A stretch of DNA of 64,000 nt from Halogeometricum sp. S1BR25-6 (lineage in GTDB: Archaea > Halobacteriota > Halobacteria > Halobacteriales > Haloferacaceae). This document shows, one piece after another, positions 5,977 to 58,236 of this stretch. Location: positions 310,001 through 374,000 of the forward strand of contig NZ_JAMQOP010000002.1 in assembly GCF_031624495.1 (NCBI RefSeq). Reading direction: 5' to 3'. Positions within the stretch are counted from its first letter, which is position 1, and each line of letters starts with the position of its first letter. The position numbers and the translations under genes are program-made. Below the pieces are notes generated by a model. The model was not told the DNA's origin and did not search any database. It was given only the letters and a program-made list of their open reading frames with translations.

Positions 5977-6579
5977 ATGGATCCCTACGAGGAAATAACG
6001 CTCTGGTTTACAATCGAAGACGATTACGAGGTTGAACTCCCCGAAACGGGAGACACGAAGCCAGCAGTGAGAATGGGAGATCTCGGGTTGTTCTTTTTCA
6101 AATATGCCGGCCTCGTCGGTGCAGCGGACGAGATGCTCTCAGGGAATGAAGAGATGGAATCGTATGTATTTGAGGTTCTCCAGCAGATTACGCCAGGGGA
6201 GATTACAGAATTTCAAGTGCCGGATGACTTTGAAGAGAAACTCCATGAGTGGGGTGTCATTGATGCATTCAGAGGCCGACCCGAGAGTTTCGCTACTTCT
6301 GCTTCCATGAGCCTCCAGTATCTCAACAAGCCAAATTTCATCGATTGTGGTGCCCTGACTGGTCCGATTGCCATTCTTATTTTCTCCCTACTCCTGAAAA
6401 ACGTGGGTGGGGGCAACATAACGGAGACGACGTTAATTGAGCGGGATACCAAGGGGAACGTCACGAAGACCGAAACCCGAAAACGGGGTATCTGGTTGGG
6501 GAAAGAAGAAGAGACTCCACCTCTTTCGGACCTCCTCGCAGTGATCAATGAACTGTCGGGAGGAGACATCTGCGAGTAG
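5977..6579 (+). CDS. Hypothetical protein, possible membrane-associated
   Basis: I do not recognise this 200-residue protein. It begins with an acidic segment (MDPYEEITLWFTIEDDYEVELPE when read in parts) and has one hydrophobic stretch near residues 129-143 (GPIAILIFSLLLKNVGGG), then a charged segment with a repeated-threonine patch ending at ELSGGDICE. Codon use is lower in GC than the core genes, as for its neighbours. An AT-rich promoter lies just upstream. It might sit on the membrane by the single hydrophobic segment; function cannot be assigned. Confidence 0.6.
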   Translation: MDPYEEITLWFTIEDDYEVELPETGDTKPAVRMGDLGLFFFKYAGLVGAADEMLSGNEEMESYVFEVLQQITPGEITEFQVPDDFEEKLHEWGVIDAFRGRPESFATSASMSLQYLNKPNFIDCGALTGPIAILIFSLLLKNVGGGNITETTLIERDTKGNVTKTETRKRGIWLGKEEETPPLSDLLAVINELSGGDICE

Positions 6580-6709: not shown

Positions 6710-6727
6710 CCAACGGACATCCGTTGG
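6710..6727. repeat. Perfect inverted repeat in leader of the RNase H-like unit
   Basis: CCAACGGA-CA-TCCGTTGG is an 8-bp perfect inverted repeat about 90 bp upstream of ATG 6818. A second pair, ACTACT (6752-6757) and AGTAGT (6763-6768), follows. These could be an operator or leader hairpins for the 6818-7385 gene pair. Confidence 0.4.
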
Positions 6728-6817: not shown

Positions 6818-6961
6818 ATGTCTGATCCGAAATTTAGCACCATCCATATCCAACGAACAGATCTTCAGGATCTCGATGACTACGCCAAGAGGGAGTTCGG
6901 GACCACTGATATCCCGTACCGCGTGATCGTCCAGCACCTCCTCGCCGAACATGTGGAGTAA
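6818..6961 (+). CDS. Small RHH-like protein overlapping RNase H-like gene
   Basis: This 47-residue protein reads MSDPKFSTIHIQRTDLQDL then DDYAKREF and TTDIPYRVIVQHLLAEHVE. A short beta-like segment followed by two helices resembles ribbon-helix-helix antitoxins and repressors, though similarity is only by pattern. The end overlaps the start of the RNase H-like gene at 6951 by 11 bp, so the two are very likely cotranscribed and translationally coupled. ATG 6818 is preferred over an upstream frame start because the RHH-like part begins here. Confidence 0.5.
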   Translation: MSDPKFSTIHIQRTDLQDLDDYAKREFGTTDIPYRVIVQHLLAEHVE

Positions 6962-7385
6962 ATTCTGGTCCACGGCAGAGGAACCGGCGTACGATGTCAC
7001 TCTCAACTTCGCTGGAGCCTGCCGGGATAATTCGGGCCCCAGCTCGTATGGACTCGTACTCCAACGCTCGGGGGAGAGAACTACGTATTCTGGTGAGCTC
7101 GGAGTCTCAACGAGTAGCGGGGCAGAGTTCCGAGCACTGATTTTCGGATTGAAGAAGGTGCTCGTCGGGGGTGCATCACATCTCCAGGTGCGAGGCAGCT
7201 CCGAGGTTGTTCTGAGGCCACTCCAGGGAGAGTACCAGATGCCAGACGGTCCTCTCTGGAGAGATTACTACTGCGCGAACTGGCTCATTCGACAGCTCGA
7301 CGACGTTGAGATCACCTGCGTTCCTGCTCATCTCAACAGGGAGGCGACGAGACTAGCCGAAGATGCGCTAGACGATCACTTCTAA
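6951..7385 (+). CDS. RNase H-fold protein with degenerate active site
   Basis: The 144-residue protein aligns to RNase HI along its whole length: FAGACRDNSGPSSYGLVL (first strand), GAEFRAL (helix A), RGSSEVVLRPLQGEY, and VPAHLNREATRLAEDAL (last helix). Compared with the intact paralogue at 8603, the first catalytic Asp is Ala21, the second is Ser83 and the last is Thr134; only Glu59 of the DEDD set is kept. It should therefore lack hydrolase activity but may still bind RNA/DNA hybrids. It is coupled to the small 6818 gene. Decay is unlikely to explain this, because the frame and fold motifs are otherwise intact. Confidence 0.7.
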   Translation: MWSKFWSTAEEPAYDVTLNFAGACRDNSGPSSYGLVLQRSGERTTYSGELGVSTSSGAEFRALIFGLKKVLVGGASHLQVRGSSEVVLRPLQGEYQMPDGPLWRDYYCANWLIRQLDDVEITCVPAHLNREATRLAEDALDDHF

Positions 7386-8602: not shown

Positions 8603-9046
8603 ATGATGAAGAAAATCCCAACAAAACAATCGGAAACCGAGAAGCAGAGCAACGAAAACACCACAGGTACCCTCCATTTCGATGGTGGATCGCGGTTAAA
8701 TTCTACATCCGCTGCGTACGGATTTGTGTTAGAGATCGGTTCGACATTAGTTGAGGAATCAGAACACATCGGTCACGGAACGAACAACCAGGCGGAGTAT
8801 GCGGGACTCGTAGCAGGACTCAGCAAGGCACGTGAGATGGGCGTCACCAAAATACATGCCTTCGGAGATTCTGAACTAATTGTAAAACAGGTAACAGGCG
8901 AATACGCAGCGAAACATGAGAATATTCGCCCCCTGTACGAACGAGCAAAGGAGCTCATCCCTGAGTTTGACGAGTTTACGATAGAACACCTTTACCGGGA
9001 CGAAAACTGCCGAGCGGATAAATTAACCAAGCAAGAGCTCGATTAG
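8603..9046 (+). CDS. rnhA: Ribonuclease HI (RNase H type 1)
   Basis: RNase HI cleaves the RNA strand of RNA/DNA hybrids such as primers and R-loops. The 147-residue protein keeps the full catalytic set: Asp27 in FDGG, Glu65 in NNQAEYAGL, Asp89 in GDSELIV and Asp139 in CRADKL. It is the short archaeal type without a hybrid-binding extension. It starts at ATG 8603 (a second ATG follows directly). Structured repeats lie upstream (8446-8507) and downstream (9286-9343). With the PrimPol gene at 10121 it suggests a replication role on the integrated element. It is intact, unlike the degenerate homologue at 6951. Confidence 0.85.
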   Translation: MMKKIPTKQSETEKQSNENTTGTLHFDGGSRLNSTSAAYGFVLEIGSTLVEESEHIGHGTNNQAEYAGLVAGLSKAREMGVTKIHAFGDSELIVKQVTGEYAAKHENIRPLYERAKELIPEFDEFTIEHLYRDENCRADKLTKQELD

Positions 9047-9431: not shown

Positions 9432-10124
9432 ATGAAAGCAATAAATTACTTTCCCGACATGCGGAAGTACCGACGTGCGAGCAACCAAGCAGAACGAAAA
9501 CCGGTCGAGAAAACTCGGTATCTGCCACTGGAGAGCAAGTACGCTGCTTCCATGTCGAACCCCGGGTTTGGGGCGACCACTGAGAGTCTCGAAGGATATC
9601 CAGACGGAGTCGAATTTCTGCCGAGGATAGCCTTTCGCGAGCCTGCGACAACGCTGTATGCGAGAGACGCTCCAGAGGACCTCGAAGATCTGTATAATCG
9701 TCTCTGGAAGCATCAGCACGGTCGCCTCGCTACCCCGAGGTTCAAGATCTCCAGCGAGGTGGAAAAGGGGCTCATGGTCGATTCAACAGAGGAGGAGAAA
9801 TATCTCCGCATCCGGCCTCTACTGGACTTGGTACCGCAGTGCCGACGGTACGCCGTTATCCGTCGGTTTCAGCGGGCAAATCTACGTCGTTTCAGCGCTC
9901 ACTACGGGGGCAACGAAGGTGCCTTCATCGGTGCTGCCATCATCGAGATGTACGACGATCTGGAGTCGTTCCTGAACGCTGAGTCGGATCTACACGATCG
10001 CGCAAGAGAATACTGGGACGTCTACCAGCCGGAGCGCGATGAAAATGACGAGAGGAAAAAGTACATTCCAGAGCTCGAGGATCTGGCGGAGTTCGCTTTC
10101 GAGGTGTGGGGTGACGAGGAATGA
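9432..10124 (+). CDS. Hypothetical protein in operon with PrimPol
   Basis: I do not recognise this 230-residue protein. It is charged throughout, with basic N-terminal segments (MRKYRRASNQAERK) and an acidic C-terminus (PELEDLAEFAFEVWGDEE). The middle reads RRYAVIRRFQRANLRRFSA, a possible nucleic-acid-binding helix. Its stop overlaps the start of the PrimPol gene (ATGA at 10121-10124), so the two are translationally coupled, which suggests an accessory role in replication or priming. Copy B of the structured repeat lies about 90 bp upstream. Confidence 0.7.
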   Translation: MKAINYFPDMRKYRRASNQAERKPVEKTRYLPLESKYAASMSNPGFGATTESLEGYPDGVEFLPRIAFREPATTLYARDAPEDLEDLYNRLWKHQHGRLATPRFKISSEVEKGLMVDSTEEEKYLRIRPLLDLVPQCRRYAVIRRFQRANLRRFSAHYGGNEGAFIGAAIIEMYDDLESFLNAESDLHDRAREYWDVYQPERDENDERKKYIPELEDLAEFAFEVWGDEE

Positions 10125-11161
10125 GTGCCCCAGCAGAACCAGCTGACCGTTACGTCGTCACAAATCCTGATCGCATCCCCGTAGAGTTGCGTGAGAGGAA
10201 AGAGTGGCTCGTCGCGCGAGTCACCGAGAACGGGAAGCCACCACTCGCCCCAAACGGCGGTGATTCGTGGAACGACACGTCTCAATCGCTCTTAGAGTTC
10301 GACGACGCATATGAACTGACCTGCGAGATCGCGCAGTCCGGGCGGATTGATACTGATGCTGGTGAACGGGTAGCACTTGCATACCGGCTCACTGCCGGTG
10401 ACCCGTATACTGGAATCGACATCGACGATATCGAGGACATCACTCTCGTTTCCGGTCTGATCGAGAAGTTTTCCACCGGATACATCGAGAAGTCCGTCTC
10501 AGAGAACGCTCACATCATCGTGAGAGCCTCAATCCCCGAAGTGACTGGTGGTAAGTATTCACTGTCGGATGTGGATGGTGCTACAGTGGAGCTGTACGAC
10601 CGGAACCGCTATCTCGTCTTCACCGGTGACGTAGTTCGCTCGGCCTTACCCATCGGCGATGGTCAGGAAGAGATGGATGCACTCGTCGACGAACTAACGG
10701 CGAAAAACCAGAGCCGAAGAAGAACTCACTCCTCCCCTACGAGGGGCGGTCCGAAGCAAACGAGCTCAATCACCGACATCGGGAAGCGGTCTGCTCGGTG
10801 GTATGCTCAGGGTTCAACCCGATCGAGCACTGACCGACCAACTGCGGACGAGGTTGTAGCCACAGCCAGAGAGTACGACCATGGATTTGACTCCCTCTGG
10901 CGCGGTCAGACGTCTGGGTATGAGACTCAGTCAAATGCAGACATGGCTCTCGCTACCAAGCTCGCGTTCTGGTGCAAAGGAGATGAGTCGCTGATGGACG
11001 AGTGCTTCCGTCAGAGCGATTTCTACGGCTGCCGAGGTCAAGAAATCCCGAAGTGGGATGCAGTGCGCAAGAGCTCCGGTGATACCTACGGAGATCTTAC
11101 GCTTCGAGAGGCGAGGCGACTCAATGCAGGGAGATACCAAGGGTCGTACCTTCGTCAGTAA
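10121..11161 (+). CDS. NrS-1-like primase-polymerase (PrimPol) without helicase
   Basis: Residues about 1-190 look like a primase-polymerase domain: PDRIPVELRERKEWLV, the acidic cluster GIDIDDIED, and ATVELYDRNRYLVFTGD, as in phage/plasmid PrimPols of the NrS-1 group. A basic linker (about 195-225) leads to a C-terminal helical bundle domain (SLWRGQ, QSNADMALATKLAFWC, DECFRQSDFYGCRG, KWDAVRKSSG) known from NrS-1 polymerase. At 346 residues it lacks the helicase domain of the phage enzyme. It probably makes primers or copies DNA for the integrated element. It is coupled to 9432-10124 and ends about 215 bp from the tRNA. Confidence 0.75.
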   Translation: MSAPAEPADRYVVTNPDRIPVELRERKEWLVARVTENGKPPLAPNGGDSWNDTSQSLLEFDDAYELTCEIAQSGRIDTDAGERVALAYRLTAGDPYTGIDIDDIEDITLVSGLIEKFSTGYIEKSVSENAHIIVRASIPEVTGGKYSLSDVDGATVELYDRNRYLVFTGDVVRSALPIGDGQEEMDALVDELTAKNQSRRRTHSSPTRGGPKQTSSITDIGKRSARWYAQGSTRSSTDRPTADEVVATAREYDHGFDSLWRGQTSGYETQSNADMALATKLAFWCKGDESLMDECFRQSDFYGCRGQEIPKWDAVRKSSGDTYGDLTLREARRLNAGRYQGSYLRQ

Positions 11162-11376
11162 TCATGTCTATCGTTGTCGTAACCAGGGATATGCCAGTCT
11201 GCAATAGATTTAATATTCTACCCATGTTCCTTTGGCACAGACCAGCAGATGGCGTCAATGCCAACAGTAGTCTTGCTCGAATGTCACAAGCGTCATGACC
11301 GGAACTAAATCGGATCCCGGGGATAGAGGACTCATGAGCTCCGATAACGGTAAATTACCTTCAGGCAAGAAAGAAG

Positions 11377-11451
11377 TGGGTTGGGGCGGATTCGAACCGC
11401 CGGCCTGCTCCGTGTGAAGGAGCCGTCATAACCTGGCTAGACCACCAACCC
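11377..11451 (-). tRNA. tRNA-Val (anticodon CAC)
   Basis: The minus strand folds into a standard 75-nt cloverleaf: acceptor GGGTTGG/CCAACCC, D arm GTC/GAC, anticodon stem GCTCC/GGAGC with loop TTCACAC (anticodon CAC, reading GTG valine codons), a 5-nt variable region, T arm GGCGG/CCGCC with TTCGAAT, and discriminator A at 11377. No intron is seen and CCA is not encoded. The 3' end faces the low-GC accessory region, so this gene is the probable attachment site of the element to its left. Confidence 0.95.
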
Positions 11452-15427: not shown

Positions 15428-17089
15428 TCAGTGTCCGATGGCCCACGGGTAGCCGCCGGTCGCCCGACTCCGGCGGGGGGCGCCGTTTCCGCTCCCGCCG
15501 GGCCCGCCCTCGTCCGAACCGGGAGCGTCGGCCGCGTCGACCGCGAGCACGTCGTCGACGCGGAGCACCGCCGAAACGGCCTCGAACGCCGTCGTGAGCG
15601 TCCGGTCGAGGACGGCCGACGGCTCCAGCACCCCGGCCTCGACCATCTCACGGAGCGCCCCCGACCGGCCGATACCGACGGTCGAGTCGCCCTCACTGTG
15701 CCGGGTCCTGAGTTCGACCAGCGAGTCGACGGGGTCGAGACCGGCGTTCGTCGCCAATTGGCGAGGTATCGCCTCCAGCGAGTCGGCGAACGCCTCGACG
15801 GCCGCCGCCTCTCGCCCGCCGACGCCCTCGGACCACGCGCCGAGGTCCCGCGCGAGGGCCGTCGCCGCCGCGCCGCCGCCGGGGAGGACGCCCTCGTCTC
15901 GGAGGGCGCGCCGGACGAGCGTCCGGCAGTCCTCGACGATGCGCTCCGTCTCCTCGGCGACGTGCGGCGTCCCGCCGCGGAGCAGCAGCGTCGCCCGCGA
16001 CTCCCCGCGACCGCCCGTCACGACGAGCGTATCGGCCGTCCCGACGGTCCGCCGACGGACCTCGCCCGCGCGTCCCAGGCGCTCGGGGGAGAGGTCCGCG
16101 ACGGCCATCGTCGGGTCCGCGTCCGTCGCGCGGGCGAGAGCGTCGAACTCGTCTCGCCGCGTGCGCTCGACGACCAACACGCCCGCGCGGGCGAGTTCCG
16201 ACCGCACCGCCCCGTCGACGGACTTCTGACAGAACAGCGCGTCGGCGCCCGACCCCGAGACCGCCCGGACGGCGTCGGCGCGGACCGACCGCTCGTGTTC
16301 GCGCAGGGCGTCGAGTTCCTCGGGTCCGTCGAGACCGAGCGACCCGGCCCCGCGGGGCGTCTCGACGGCGAGTTCGGCGTCGAGCATCGCCACTCGCGCG
16401 TCGGCGAGCGTCCGCGGTCCCTCGACGGCGCCGTCCTCGACGCCCGTCGAGGAGGTGTCGGTGTCGACGAGGACGCCGTCGAGGAGCGTCGACTCCCGGA
16501 GTTCGCCACCCGGGTAGGCGCACAGGTCGAGACGGGCGTCGTCGAAGCCGACGGCGCGGAGGCCGGAGACGGCGAGGCCGGCGAACCGCTCGGCGGCCGC
16601 GTCGTCCCACCGACCCGTGACGGCCGTCTTCGCCACGCTTCGCAGGCGCTCCTCGTCGCCCTCCTCGACCGGAAGTTCGTAGGCGGGAAGCCGTTCGCGG
16701 GCGCGGGTCGCCGCCAGCGCGTACCCCTCGACGACCGTCGTCGGGTGGTAGCCGTCCGCGACGAGCGACGACGCCGCCGAGAGCAGTTCGTCGACGAGGA
16801 GCAGGGTCCCCGTCGCGCCGTCGCCGACGCGCGCTCGCTGGGTCCGGACGGCCCGCGACAGCACCCGAGCGACGGGGTCCTCGACGTCGAGTCGGTCGAG
16901 GATACTCGCGCCGTCGTTCGTGACGACGACGGTGCCGTCGGAACCGACGAGCATCTTGTCGCGGCCGTTCGGCCCGAACGTCGACCGGACGGTGCCCGCC
17001 AGCGCCCGCGCGGATTCGGCCGGTGTCGGTACCTCTCCGTCTCGCCCGTCCCCGGTCTCCGCCAGAGGCGGCCGCGCTACGTCCGACAT
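15428..17089 (-). CDS. Divergent thermosome / group II chaperonin subunit
   Basis: The 553-residue protein keeps the chaperonin frame: GPNGRDKMLV, VVTNDGASIL, RVGDGATGTLLLVDELL (canonical GDGTTT), and VLPGGGAAATALARDL. Motif order and length match group II chaperonins, which fold proteins with ATP in a double ring. It is clearly diverged: the ATP-site GDGTTT has become GDGATG, and the tail ends in YPWAIGH rather than the Gly/Met-rich end. Haloarchaea usually have two or three thermosome genes; this looks like an unusual extra paralogue, perhaps a minor subunit or a hetero-oligomer partner. Confidence 0.8.
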   Translation of the reverse strand: MSDVARPPLAETGDGRDGEVPTPAESARALAGTVRSTFGPNGRDKMLVGSDGTVVVTNDGASILDRLDVEDPVARVLSRAVRTQRARVGDGATGTLLLVDELLSAASSLVADGYHPTTVVEGYALAATRARERLPAYELPVEEGDEERLRSVAKTAVTGRWDDAAAERFAGLAVSGLRAVGFDDARLDLCAYPGGELRESTLLDGVLVDTDTSSTGVEDGAVEGPRTLADARVAMLDAELAVETPRGAGSLGLDGPEELDALREHERSVRADAVRAVSGSGADALFCQKSVDGAVRSELARAGVLVVERTRRDEFDALARATDADPTMAVADLSPERLGRAGEVRRRTVGTADTLVVTGGRGESRATLLLRGGTPHVAEETERIVEDCRTLVRRALRDEGVLPGGGAAATALARDLGAWSEGVGGREAAAVEAFADSLEAIPRQLATNAGLDPVDSLVELRTRHSEGDSTVGIGRSGALREMVEAGVLEPSAVLDRTLTTAFEAVSAVLRVDDVLAVDAADAPGSDEGGPGGSGNGAPRRSRATGGYPWAIGH

Positions 17090-17162
17090 CGGAGCGCCGG
17101 ACGGAGACGGTTCGGGGTCGCGCCCGCGTTCGCGTCCGGAGTTGCCGCTCGCATCCGTCGGG

Positions 17163-18437
17163 TCACCCGAGCGGGTCGTCCGTGACGACCAGGTCGCCGC
17201 GGTCGGTCTTCGACTCCTCCAGTCCGCCCGGCGAGACGTCGAACTCGAAGACGCCCTTCGGGAGCGCGAGCGTCGAACACGCGTTCGGCACGTCGACGAC
17301 GCCGCTCTGCCGCCCCTCGACGGGCACCGTCCCGAGCAGGTGGTAGGCCTGCTGGCCCGTGTAGCCGAACTTCTTCAGGTAGTCGATGGCCTGCAGGCAG
17401 GCGCGACGGTAGGCGACGTGCGAGTCGATGTAGTGCTGCTCGCCGTCCTCGGTGACCGAGTAGCCGCAGAAGGTCACGTAGTCCTCGAAATGCGGGCCGC
17501 GGTGGCCGGGTTCGAAGATGGGGTGGTCGACGCCGTGCGCCTCCATGCCGCCCTTCACGAGGTCGAACTCCACGTCGACGTAGCCCGGCATCTCGATGGC
17601 GCCGCAGAACGTTATCTCGCCGTCGCCCTGCGAGGCGTGGAAGTCGCCGACGCCGAACTTCGCCCCCTCGACGTAGACGGGGAAGTACACCGTCGACCCG
17701 ATGGAGAGGTCCTTGATGTCGTGATTGCCGCCGTGTTCGCGCGGCGGCACCGTCCGCGCGGCCGTCTCGGCCGCCTCCTCGGCCGCCTCGGGGTCCATCT
17801 CGCCCATCTGGGCGCCCTCGGTCGTCGGGAGGTTCGCCACGCCGGGTTCCTCCTCGCCGGTGGGGTGGTTGTGAATCGACTCGGGGTCCGCCTCGTGTTT
17901 CTCCGCCAGCGCCCGTTCGCGCTCGTTCCACTCCTCCAACAGTTCCTCGCTCGGCGCACACCCGGCCAGTCCGGGGTGAATCTTCCCCTCGTAGCGCACG
18001 TCGGGCACGTGCCGCGAGGAGACGGTGTAGCCGTCGATGTCCCAGACGGACTTGGCGGCGTCGGGGAAGTGGTCCGTCAGGAAGCCGCCGCCGTTCTGCC
18101 GGGAGAACGTGCCGGTAAAGCCGAACTCGCACCGGTCGTTCAGCGGCCCCATGTCGAGGAACTCGACCTTCAGTAGGTCGCCGGGTTCGGCGCCCTCGAC
18201 GTGTACCGGGCCGGCGAGGTAGTGGACCTGGCTCAGGTCCACGTCCCGGACGTCGTTGGCGTTGTCGTCGTCGGCTATCTGGCCGCCGGTCCAATCGAGC
18301 GCCTCCAACCGCATCGTCTCGCCGGGTTCGGCCTCGACGGCCGCCGGAATGTCCGGGTGCCAGCGATTGAACGGGTTCGCGCCGGGTTGCTCGTCGGGCG
18401 GACTGTCGACGTCGACCTCGAATTTTACTTCTGGCAT
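17163..18437 (-). CDS. fmdA: Formamidase / acetamidase family protein
   Basis: FmdA/AmdA enzymes hydrolyse formamide or acetamide to the acid and ammonia. From ATG 18437 the 424-residue protein shows the family pattern: NPFNRWHPDIPAAVEAEPGE near the start, LSGRIHPG-like KIHPGLAGCAPS, GGNHDIKDLSIGSTVYFPV and FHASQGDGE, which form the metal-linked active site region. It is likely cytosolic and provides nitrogen. An in-frame start 15 nt upstream is less likely because PEVKFEVDVD is the typical beginning. Single gene, no transporter adjacent. Confidence 0.92.
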   Translation of the reverse strand: MPEVKFEVDVDSPPDEQPGANPFNRWHPDIPAAVEAEPGETMRLEALDWTGGQIADDDNANDVRDVDLSQVHYLAGPVHVEGAEPGDLLKVEFLDMGPLNDRCEFGFTGTFSRQNGGGFLTDHFPDAAKSVWDIDGYTVSSRHVPDVRYEGKIHPGLAGCAPSEELLEEWNERERALAEKHEADPESIHNHPTGEEEPGVANLPTTEGAQMGEMDPEAAEEAAETAARTVPPREHGGNHDIKDLSIGSTVYFPVYVEGAKFGVGDFHASQGDGEITFCGAIEMPGYVDVEFDLVKGGMEAHGVDHPIFEPGHRGPHFEDYVTFCGYSVTEDGEQHYIDSHVAYRRACLQAIDYLKKFGYTGQQAYHLLGTVPVEGRQSGVVDVPNACSTLALPKGVFEFDVSPGGLEESKTDRGDLVVTDDPLG

Positions 18438-56933: not shown

Positions 56934-57620
56934 TCAGTCGCTCGCGCGACTCTCGAACCGCGACGGCGGCGGGAACTGCGGGTCGTCGGCCTCGGTTTCG
57001 GCTCCGGTTCTGGTTCCGGTCCCGGTCCCGGGGCCGGCGTTCGCCGGCGAGGGCGAGTCCGGCACGACGCAGCGGTCCTTTCGCTCGTTGACGTGCGCGT
57101 ACTCGTTCGGCGCGTTCGCGAGGGGATGTGCGGGGTTGTTCCGGCCGTCGATGCGCGCGGCGCGGAGTTCGGCGAATCCGGCGATGCGGGCGCGGATGCC
57201 CCGCCAGTGGTTCTCGCTGCCGGCCGGCGGCGACGTGGGTCGGCGCGTCCGACGCCACTCGGGGTCGGCCTTCGCGAGGACCTCGGTGTTGACGTTCGCC
57301 GCGAGGGCGTCGTGGTCGATGAGGACGCCGACCCGGGCGCTCGGCGGCGCGCGGGCCGCGAGCACGTCCAGACCGAGGTGGAGCGCGCGGTACTCGGAGA
57401 CGTTGTTGTTCGGCGCCGCGTCGGGCACGGCGACCCGAGCCACCCGCGTGCCGTCGCGCGTCTCGATGACGACACCCAGTCCGCCGTCGCCCGAGGACCG
57501 ATACGACCCGTCGGTGGCGACGTAGAAGTGGCGGTGGTGGGTGCGCGGCGGATGCGCGATGTGCGGCGTGGGAGACTCGTCGAACAGGTCTCGAAGTGAT
57601 TGACGGCCGTGAACGGCCAT
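56934..57620 (-). CDS. RNase H-fold protein, long C-terminal extension
   Basis: From ATG 57620 the 228-residue protein has an RNase H-like core (about residues 30-170): HFYVATDGSYRSSGDGGLGV with the first Asp, NNNVSEYRALHLGLDVL with the Glu, and VGVLIDHDALAANVN with a further Asp. The last catalytic position is not clear (NAPNEYAHVNER). The C-terminal 60 residues are Thr/Gly-rich and unstructured. A TTTATATTT element centred about 27 nt before ATG 57620 indicates a leaderless start. Distinct from the two RNase H homologues in the accessory region; role unknown, possibly RNA/DNA hybrid processing. Confidence 0.72.
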   Translation of the reverse strand: MAVHGRQSLRDLFDESPTPHIAHPPRTHHRHFYVATDGSYRSSGDGGLGVVIETRDGTRVARVAVPDAAPNNNVSEYRALHLGLDVLAARAPPSARVGVLIDHDALAANVNTEVLAKADPEWRRTRRPTSPPAGSENHWRGIRARIAGFAELRAARIDGRNNPAHPLANAPNEYAHVNERKDRCVVPDSPSPANAGPGTGTGTRTGAETEADDPQFPPPSRFESRASD

Positions 57621-57640
57621 GCTCGTCCCTACCAAACCCA

Positions 57641-57655
57641 GAAATATAAATATAA
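57641..57655. promoter_or_regulatory. AT-rich TATA region between divergent genes
   Basis: GAAATATAAATATAA provides a TATA-like box on both strands between the RNase H-fold gene (57620, leftward) and the CBS gene (rightward). For the leftward gene the spacing is about 27 nt to the start codon. Confidence 0.45.
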
Positions 57656-57717
57656 CCCGAATTTGCACCGTGAACGAAAAGGAACAGACAGATGGACCGC
57701 GTCCGCGTAGGGAGGGT

Positions 57718-58236
57718 ATGGACCTCTCCGCTCGGGAGTTGATGACGACGGACGTGAAGACGGTCGCCCCGGACGACGACGTGAGCAACGTGTTGGGTCG
57801 CCTCGCACGCGCCGACTTCAACGGGTTCCCCGTCGTCGACGAGGACGGCGCCGTCGTCGGCATCGTCACGCAACACGACCTCGTGGAACTGTTTCAGACC
57901 AAAGAGCGGACGCTGTGGATTCCCGTCGGCCTCCCGCCGTTCACGGAGACGCTCACCTACGCCGTCGACGTGTCGTGGGACGACCTCGACCTCGGCGTCG
58001 ACTTGGCGAAGAACGCCGACAGACCCATCAGCGAAGTGATGACGACGGACGTGGTGACCGTCGGCCCCGACGCGGACCTCGACACCGTCCTCGACCTCCT
58101 GTCGGGCGACGACCGCGATATCAACCGCTTGCCGGTGGTCGAGGACGGCCGCCTGGTCGGCATCGTCGCCCGTCAGGACGTCGTCCGGGCGATGCGAGAC
58201 CTCCGTCGCGGCACCGGAGAGACCGCGAGACGATAA
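57718..58236 (+). CDS. CBS-domain pair protein
   Basis: The 172-residue protein consists of two CBS motifs: DLSARELMTTDVKTVAPDDD with GFPVVDEDGAVVGIVTQHDL, and ISEVMTTDVVTVGPDADLDT with RLPVVEDGRLVGIVARQDVV. CBS pairs bind adenosyl ligands and regulate partner proteins. A GTG at 57670 in frame, about 20 nt after the TATA region, is an alternative leaderless start that would add 16 residues. GGGAGG lies just before ATG 57718. Confidence 0.88.
   Translation: MDLSARELMTTDVKTVAPDDDVSNVLGRLARADFNGFPVVDEDGAVVGIVTQHDLVELFQTKERTLWIPVGLPPFTETLTYAVDVSWDDLDLGVDLAKNADRPISEVMTTDVVTVGPDADLDTVLDLLSGDDRDINRLPVVEDGRLVGIVARQDVVRAMRDLRRGTGETARR

Follow-up and report, generated by a model that had tools for sequence, protein, structure and literature searches.

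Can a gene that has kept the open frame and the fold of an RNase HI, and lost most of the residues with which the enzyme holds its metals, still serve its carrier? The question is raised by a locus of Halogeometricum sp. S1BR25-6, within the stretch of 64,000 nucleotides analysed here (the window; contig NZ_JAMQOP010000002.1, positions 310,001 to 374,000), where an RNase H-like protein of 144 residues is encoded directly behind a protein of 47 residues. An earlier, sequence-only reading had proposed that precisely the catalytic residues were lost, through selection for the binding of RNA/DNA hybrids without cleavage, and that the two genes form a toxin-antitoxin or sensor-effector pair. The explanation favoured here, with a probability of about 0.5, is that the longer protein is a true pseudoenzyme of the RNase HI fold, kept for this fold in a non-catalytic binding role, with its small partner probably acting as a regulator. 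This reading is preferred because three of the four metal ligands, the active-site arginine and the substrate-side asparagine and glutamine residues are gone, while the core and the frame have been kept.

Fold and catalytic face

The frame (6951-7385, plus strand) is intact over its 144 codons, and the full RNase HI layout described by the sequence-only reading was borne out. The protein scores above the family cut-off with Pfam RVT_3 (PF13456, E=1.3e-12), and reaches E=2.6e-18 with the NCBIfam model of haloarchaeal RNase HI (NF041306, RnaseHI_Halo), with a score of 66.6 bits that stays below the model's cut-off of 300. Its best relative in the PDB is 4e19, the RNase H1 of Halobacterium (36% identity). 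Structure prediction and alignment to RNase HI, both suggested earlier, gave an RNase H fold: the strands and helices follow the RNase H order and the mean pLDDT is 92.7, in a model for which 28 sequences of active relatives were aligned and which is therefore biased towards this fold. In a Foldseek comparison, the model matched 4e19 with TM values of 0.84/0.91 and an rmsd of 1.3 Å. The likeness to the haloarchaeal enzymes (Halobacterium RNase H1, 4e19/4nyn; NF041306) includes the length of the domain, the GPxxxG turn and the AE[YF]xAL and VPxxxNxxA helices, and the same fold is found in the short archaeal RNase HI of Sulfolobus tokodaii (2ehg, 3aly; TM 0.82).

The likeness ends at the active site. 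In Halobacterium RNase H1 this is formed by Asp75, Glu115, Asp139 and Asp189 (PMC4182655), and the alignment to 4e19 places A21, E59, S83 and T133 of the 144-residue protein at these metal ligands, in place of the D-E-D-D set of active RNase HI. Ala21 and Ser83 had been named correctly in the sequence-only reading; the third residue, given there as Thr134, is Thr133. In an alignment of 79 relatives, made up of haloarchaeal and viral sequences and the RNase HI of the same integrated element, D21, D83 and D133 are 100% conserved, so that their loss goes beyond chance, and six of the 12 fully conserved positions have been lost in the 144-residue protein (D21A, N56S, D83S, Q90P, R126A and D133T).

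The loss is not, then, one of precisely the catalytic residues, since R126A, N55S, N56S, Q57G and Q90P, all missed earlier, include a conserved active-site arginine and substrate-side positions. Position 126, arginine in 100% of the relatives and alanine here, aligns in 3aly with Arg118 of the S. tokodaii enzyme, which we take from earlier work to be a fifth active-site residue. The positions of N55 and N56 align with N44 and N45 of the E. coli enzyme, which contact the hybrid in the minor groove. Unlike the haloarchaeal enzymes, the protein is without three of the four metal ligands, the arginine and the NN and Q positions; the S. tokodaii enzyme likewise differs from it in keeping both the acidic ligands and Arg118, where A/E/S/T and alanine are found here. 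As read from these alignments, the entire catalytic face is altered, beyond the three aspartates, and the protein is very probably catalytically dead: the two catalytic metals should no longer bind, and the RNA of RNA/DNA hybrids would not be cleaved. In Halobacterium RNase H1 the double substitution D75A/D139A abolished metal binding and raised stability by 11 °C (PMC4182655); these two residues are the equivalents of A21 and S83, so that the loss of the site can also favour the fold.

Had the protein been selected to bind hybrids without cleaving them, as first suggested, it might sit on R-loops or primers and protect or sense them. The RNase H fold is kept, as are E59 and the residues N27 and T54, the counterparts of E. 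coli N16 and T43, and catalytic aspartate mutants of RNase H are still able to bind hybrids. However, N55, N56, Q90 and the active-site arginine have become S, S, P and A, and the metals, which ordinarily form a bridge between enzyme and RNA, are not expected to bind. Because conserved residues of the substrate side are lost, this role is a less likely one, and we regard it as doubtful.

The overlapping small gene

The gene of the 47-residue protein (6818-6961, plus strand) overlaps the start of the longer frame by 11 nt (ATGTGGAGTAA), in agreement with the earlier description, and 90 bp upstream of it lies a candidate operator, the perfect 8-bp inverted repeat CCAACGGA-CA-TCCGTTGG (6710-6727). 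The small protein matched no Pfam or NCBIfam model, no plasmid or phage protein and, by profile, nothing in viral contigs; it belongs to a family with an 'FGTxDIPYR'-like motif that is present in 22 of 392 haloarchaeal genomes. Its model (pLDDT 80) comprises an extended N-terminus, whose strand is unpaired in the monomer, and helices at residues 13-27 and 34-46. The size and this extended-helix-helix layout are those of ribbon-helix-helix antitoxins and repressors of the MazE and CopG type; unlike them, the protein gives no significant fold or family match and has no C-terminal toxin-binding tail. The ribbon-helix-helix resemblance noted earlier is therefore upheld in part, the conserved family and the two helices being consistent with it and the best fold match, to the antitoxin MazE-mt1, being non-significant (E=3.2). 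On the strength of the family and the model, the protein is probably a ribbon-helix-helix DNA binder.

The surroundings of its relatives indicate the kind of gene to which it belongs. A paralogue with 42-45% identity lies on the same element, 9.6 kb upstream (L049:15211-15375; G000:C2:307210-307374), 94 nt before a gene resembling those of replication proteins, an order that recurs in a further locus (L050). Several members of the family share a start-stop overlap with a downstream mobile-element gene, and the genes that follow the relatives (L113-L136), resemble, by inspection, Rep, HNH or tape-measure genes, or are unknown. The regulation of mobile elements is thus the probable role of the small gene. 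Its pairing with an RNase H-like gene was seen at this locus only, there being no RNase H beside any of 25 relatives.

These neighbourhoods bear directly on the proposed pair, in which the ribbon-helix-helix-like protein would be the antitoxin and the RNase H-fold protein the effector. An antitoxin-like gene order, the overlap and the resemblance to MazE-mt1 are what such a pair would display, but 47 residues leave no room for a toxin-binding tail, an active site cannot be recognised in the would-be effector, a comparison with defence models gave no match and the relatives of the small gene precede genes of the kinds listed above, never RNase H. The conserved pairing that a toxin-antitoxin system requires is thus absent, and no homologue with the substitutions was encountered. 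The sequence-only reading had itself held that the lack of a conserved neighbour gene would refute it, and the search for the same upstream small gene revealed no such neighbour. A toxin-antitoxin or sensor-effector pair is accordingly very improbable. Also unlikely is a two-gene regulatory module made of a free RNase HI pseudoenzyme and a ribbon-helix-helix protein, in which the old substrate face would read a nucleic-acid or protein signal and pass it to the DNA binder. Under the pseudoenzyme reading, the 47-residue protein would be a DNA-binding autoregulator, with its translation coupled to that of the overlapping gene.

Relatives, and decay or retention

Orthologues of the 144-residue protein were sought in one genome per species of the Halobacteriales (392), supplemented with the genus and three large families, about 550 genomes together, among which the closest matches had about 39-42% identity. 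Plasmid and phage collections gave matches of only 25-36% identity, a collection of genome contigs a single distant and partial bacterial match, and viral contigs none. A separate profile search of viral contigs was seeded with intact motifs and is biased towards active copies. Homologues with the same three substitutions, proposed earlier as a check, were not found in the haloarchaeal genomes or in the plasmid, phage and viral collections. The protein is a singleton, whose function we infer. In all relatives inspected, the first three acids are D/E/D where covered, and the fourth is D, N or H; since D10, E48 and D70 are present in each of the other RNase HI relatives with examined residues, a copy that is complete yet dead is out of the ordinary.

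Of the four RVT_3 proteins that score above the cut-off in the host genome, two are encoded by the element, a third lies on contig C4 and the fourth, on contig C1, falls in the RnhA clade; all carry D/E/D/D except the 144-residue protein. In the tree, whose deep nodes are unresolved, the protein stands on a long branch (1.94) outside the chromosomal RnhA clade (95/83), and a recent duplication of the host RnhA is not supported.

The gene might also be decaying, redundant with the element's other RNase HI and the two host copies, functionless and open only by chance. The intact RNase HI on the element, the pair of RNase HI-like genes on other host contigs, the length of the branch and the lack of orthologues all speak for such a course, and the long branch and the rarity of the element would also suit a gene that is being lost. 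Nevertheless, the 144 codons have stayed open despite changes at nine of 16 conserved polar positions, and a frame in which 40% of the amino acids had changed at random would still be open with a chance of about 1.5%. Furthermore, of the positions with at least 95% conservation among haloarchaeal RNase HI, 20 of 28 non-polar and seven of 16 polar ones are unchanged in the protein, and 16 of 27 and 15 of 16, respectively, in the active neighbour on the element; the structural core is better preserved in the dead copy than in its active paralogue.

A Fisher test of polar against non-polar positions is weak when taken alone (p=0.11, falling to 0.0045 only when four conservative changes are excused after the fact), and a neutral simulation was therefore made, in which four active genes were randomly mutated until nine polar positions were lost. 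An open frame with equal conservation of the core was obtained in only 1-3% of the runs, indels not being counted. The simulation and the retention of the core favour a kept fold over simple decay, without proving it, and decay seems to us possible but rather unlikely. To judge from its residues, the protein has probably been retained for its fold. The features that define a pseudoenzyme (a retained fold, the loss of catalytic residues and a constrained core) are found together, the constraint being a statistical one drawn from a single sequence.

Two minor observations concern the fourth acidic position in other proteins. An RNase H-like protein encoded in the window outside the element (56934-57869, minus strand; RVT_3 E=0.0019, below the cut-off) keeps, by eye, the first three acids and has histidine at the fourth. 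The same histidine occurs in a different genome (L044:2734-3141), in a stand-alone RNase HI of 135 residues encoded close to a methylase-like gene.

The integrated element and a putative role

Both genes are carried by an element of 25 kb integrated at a tRNA-Val gene (11376-11451, minus strand). Its right end is marked by the att core at 11375-11394, at the 3' end of the tRNA gene, and the other copy of this 20-bp repeat lies beside an integrase (G000:C2:296341-296360). The G+C content is about 53% in the element and about 68% in the remainder of the window, and the lower value fits a foreign origin. The intact RNase HI noted earlier at 1.2 kb on the same element is indeed there (8603-9046, plus strand); it begins 1,217 nt downstream of the RNase H-like gene and has all of D, E, D and D. 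Farther downstream lies a gene for a protein resembling the NrS-1 polymerase/primase (10121-11161, plus strand; Pfam PF22763, 7.9e-17; PHROG primase, 4.3e-35).

According to the pseudoenzyme reading, the 144-residue protein would serve the element by binding or as a scaffold, without catalysis, most likely as a protein partner in its replication, beside the active RNase HI and the primase-like protein. By analogy with known cases, a tether- or scaffold-like role is the mechanism on which we would bet. The tether domain of retroviruses derives from an RNase H that, once another RNase H had been acquired, degenerated and kept a structural role (PMC9040795), and the tether (connection) domain of retroviruses and of Odin elements shares with the present protein the situation of a degenerate RNase H beside an active one on the same mobile element. 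Unlike the tether, which is a domain of the Pol polyprotein in eukaryotic retroelements, the protein described here is free and belongs to an archaeal element, in which no reverse transcriptase was seen. Prp8 is a further precedent for a degenerate RNase H used as a structural domain (PMC3985635); its RNase H-like domain has the fold and an incomplete active site, in an unrelated context.

A complete but dead copy offers a natural test of what the RNase H fold can do without catalysis. It adds one example to a known phenomenon, the enzyme turned non-enzyme, and a modest one that as a singleton opens no field yet; its interest depends mainly on the finding of orthologues, which would make it an archaeal counterpart of the degenerate retroviral RNase H.

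As regards the remainder of the element, no close relatives were found through the primase-like gene in the 392 genomes or in viral contigs, and proteins with about 31% identity to its product occur on many haloarchaeal plasmids. Two proteins of the element, of 200 residues (5977-6579) and 230 residues (9432-10124), have no significant family match, the latter being also without a plasmid match. Finally, genes for a type I restriction-modification system (HsdM, HsdS and HsdR), for a YgjP-like metallopeptidase and for a Fic protein are also present on the element (L049:7116-13688 and 17003-18181).
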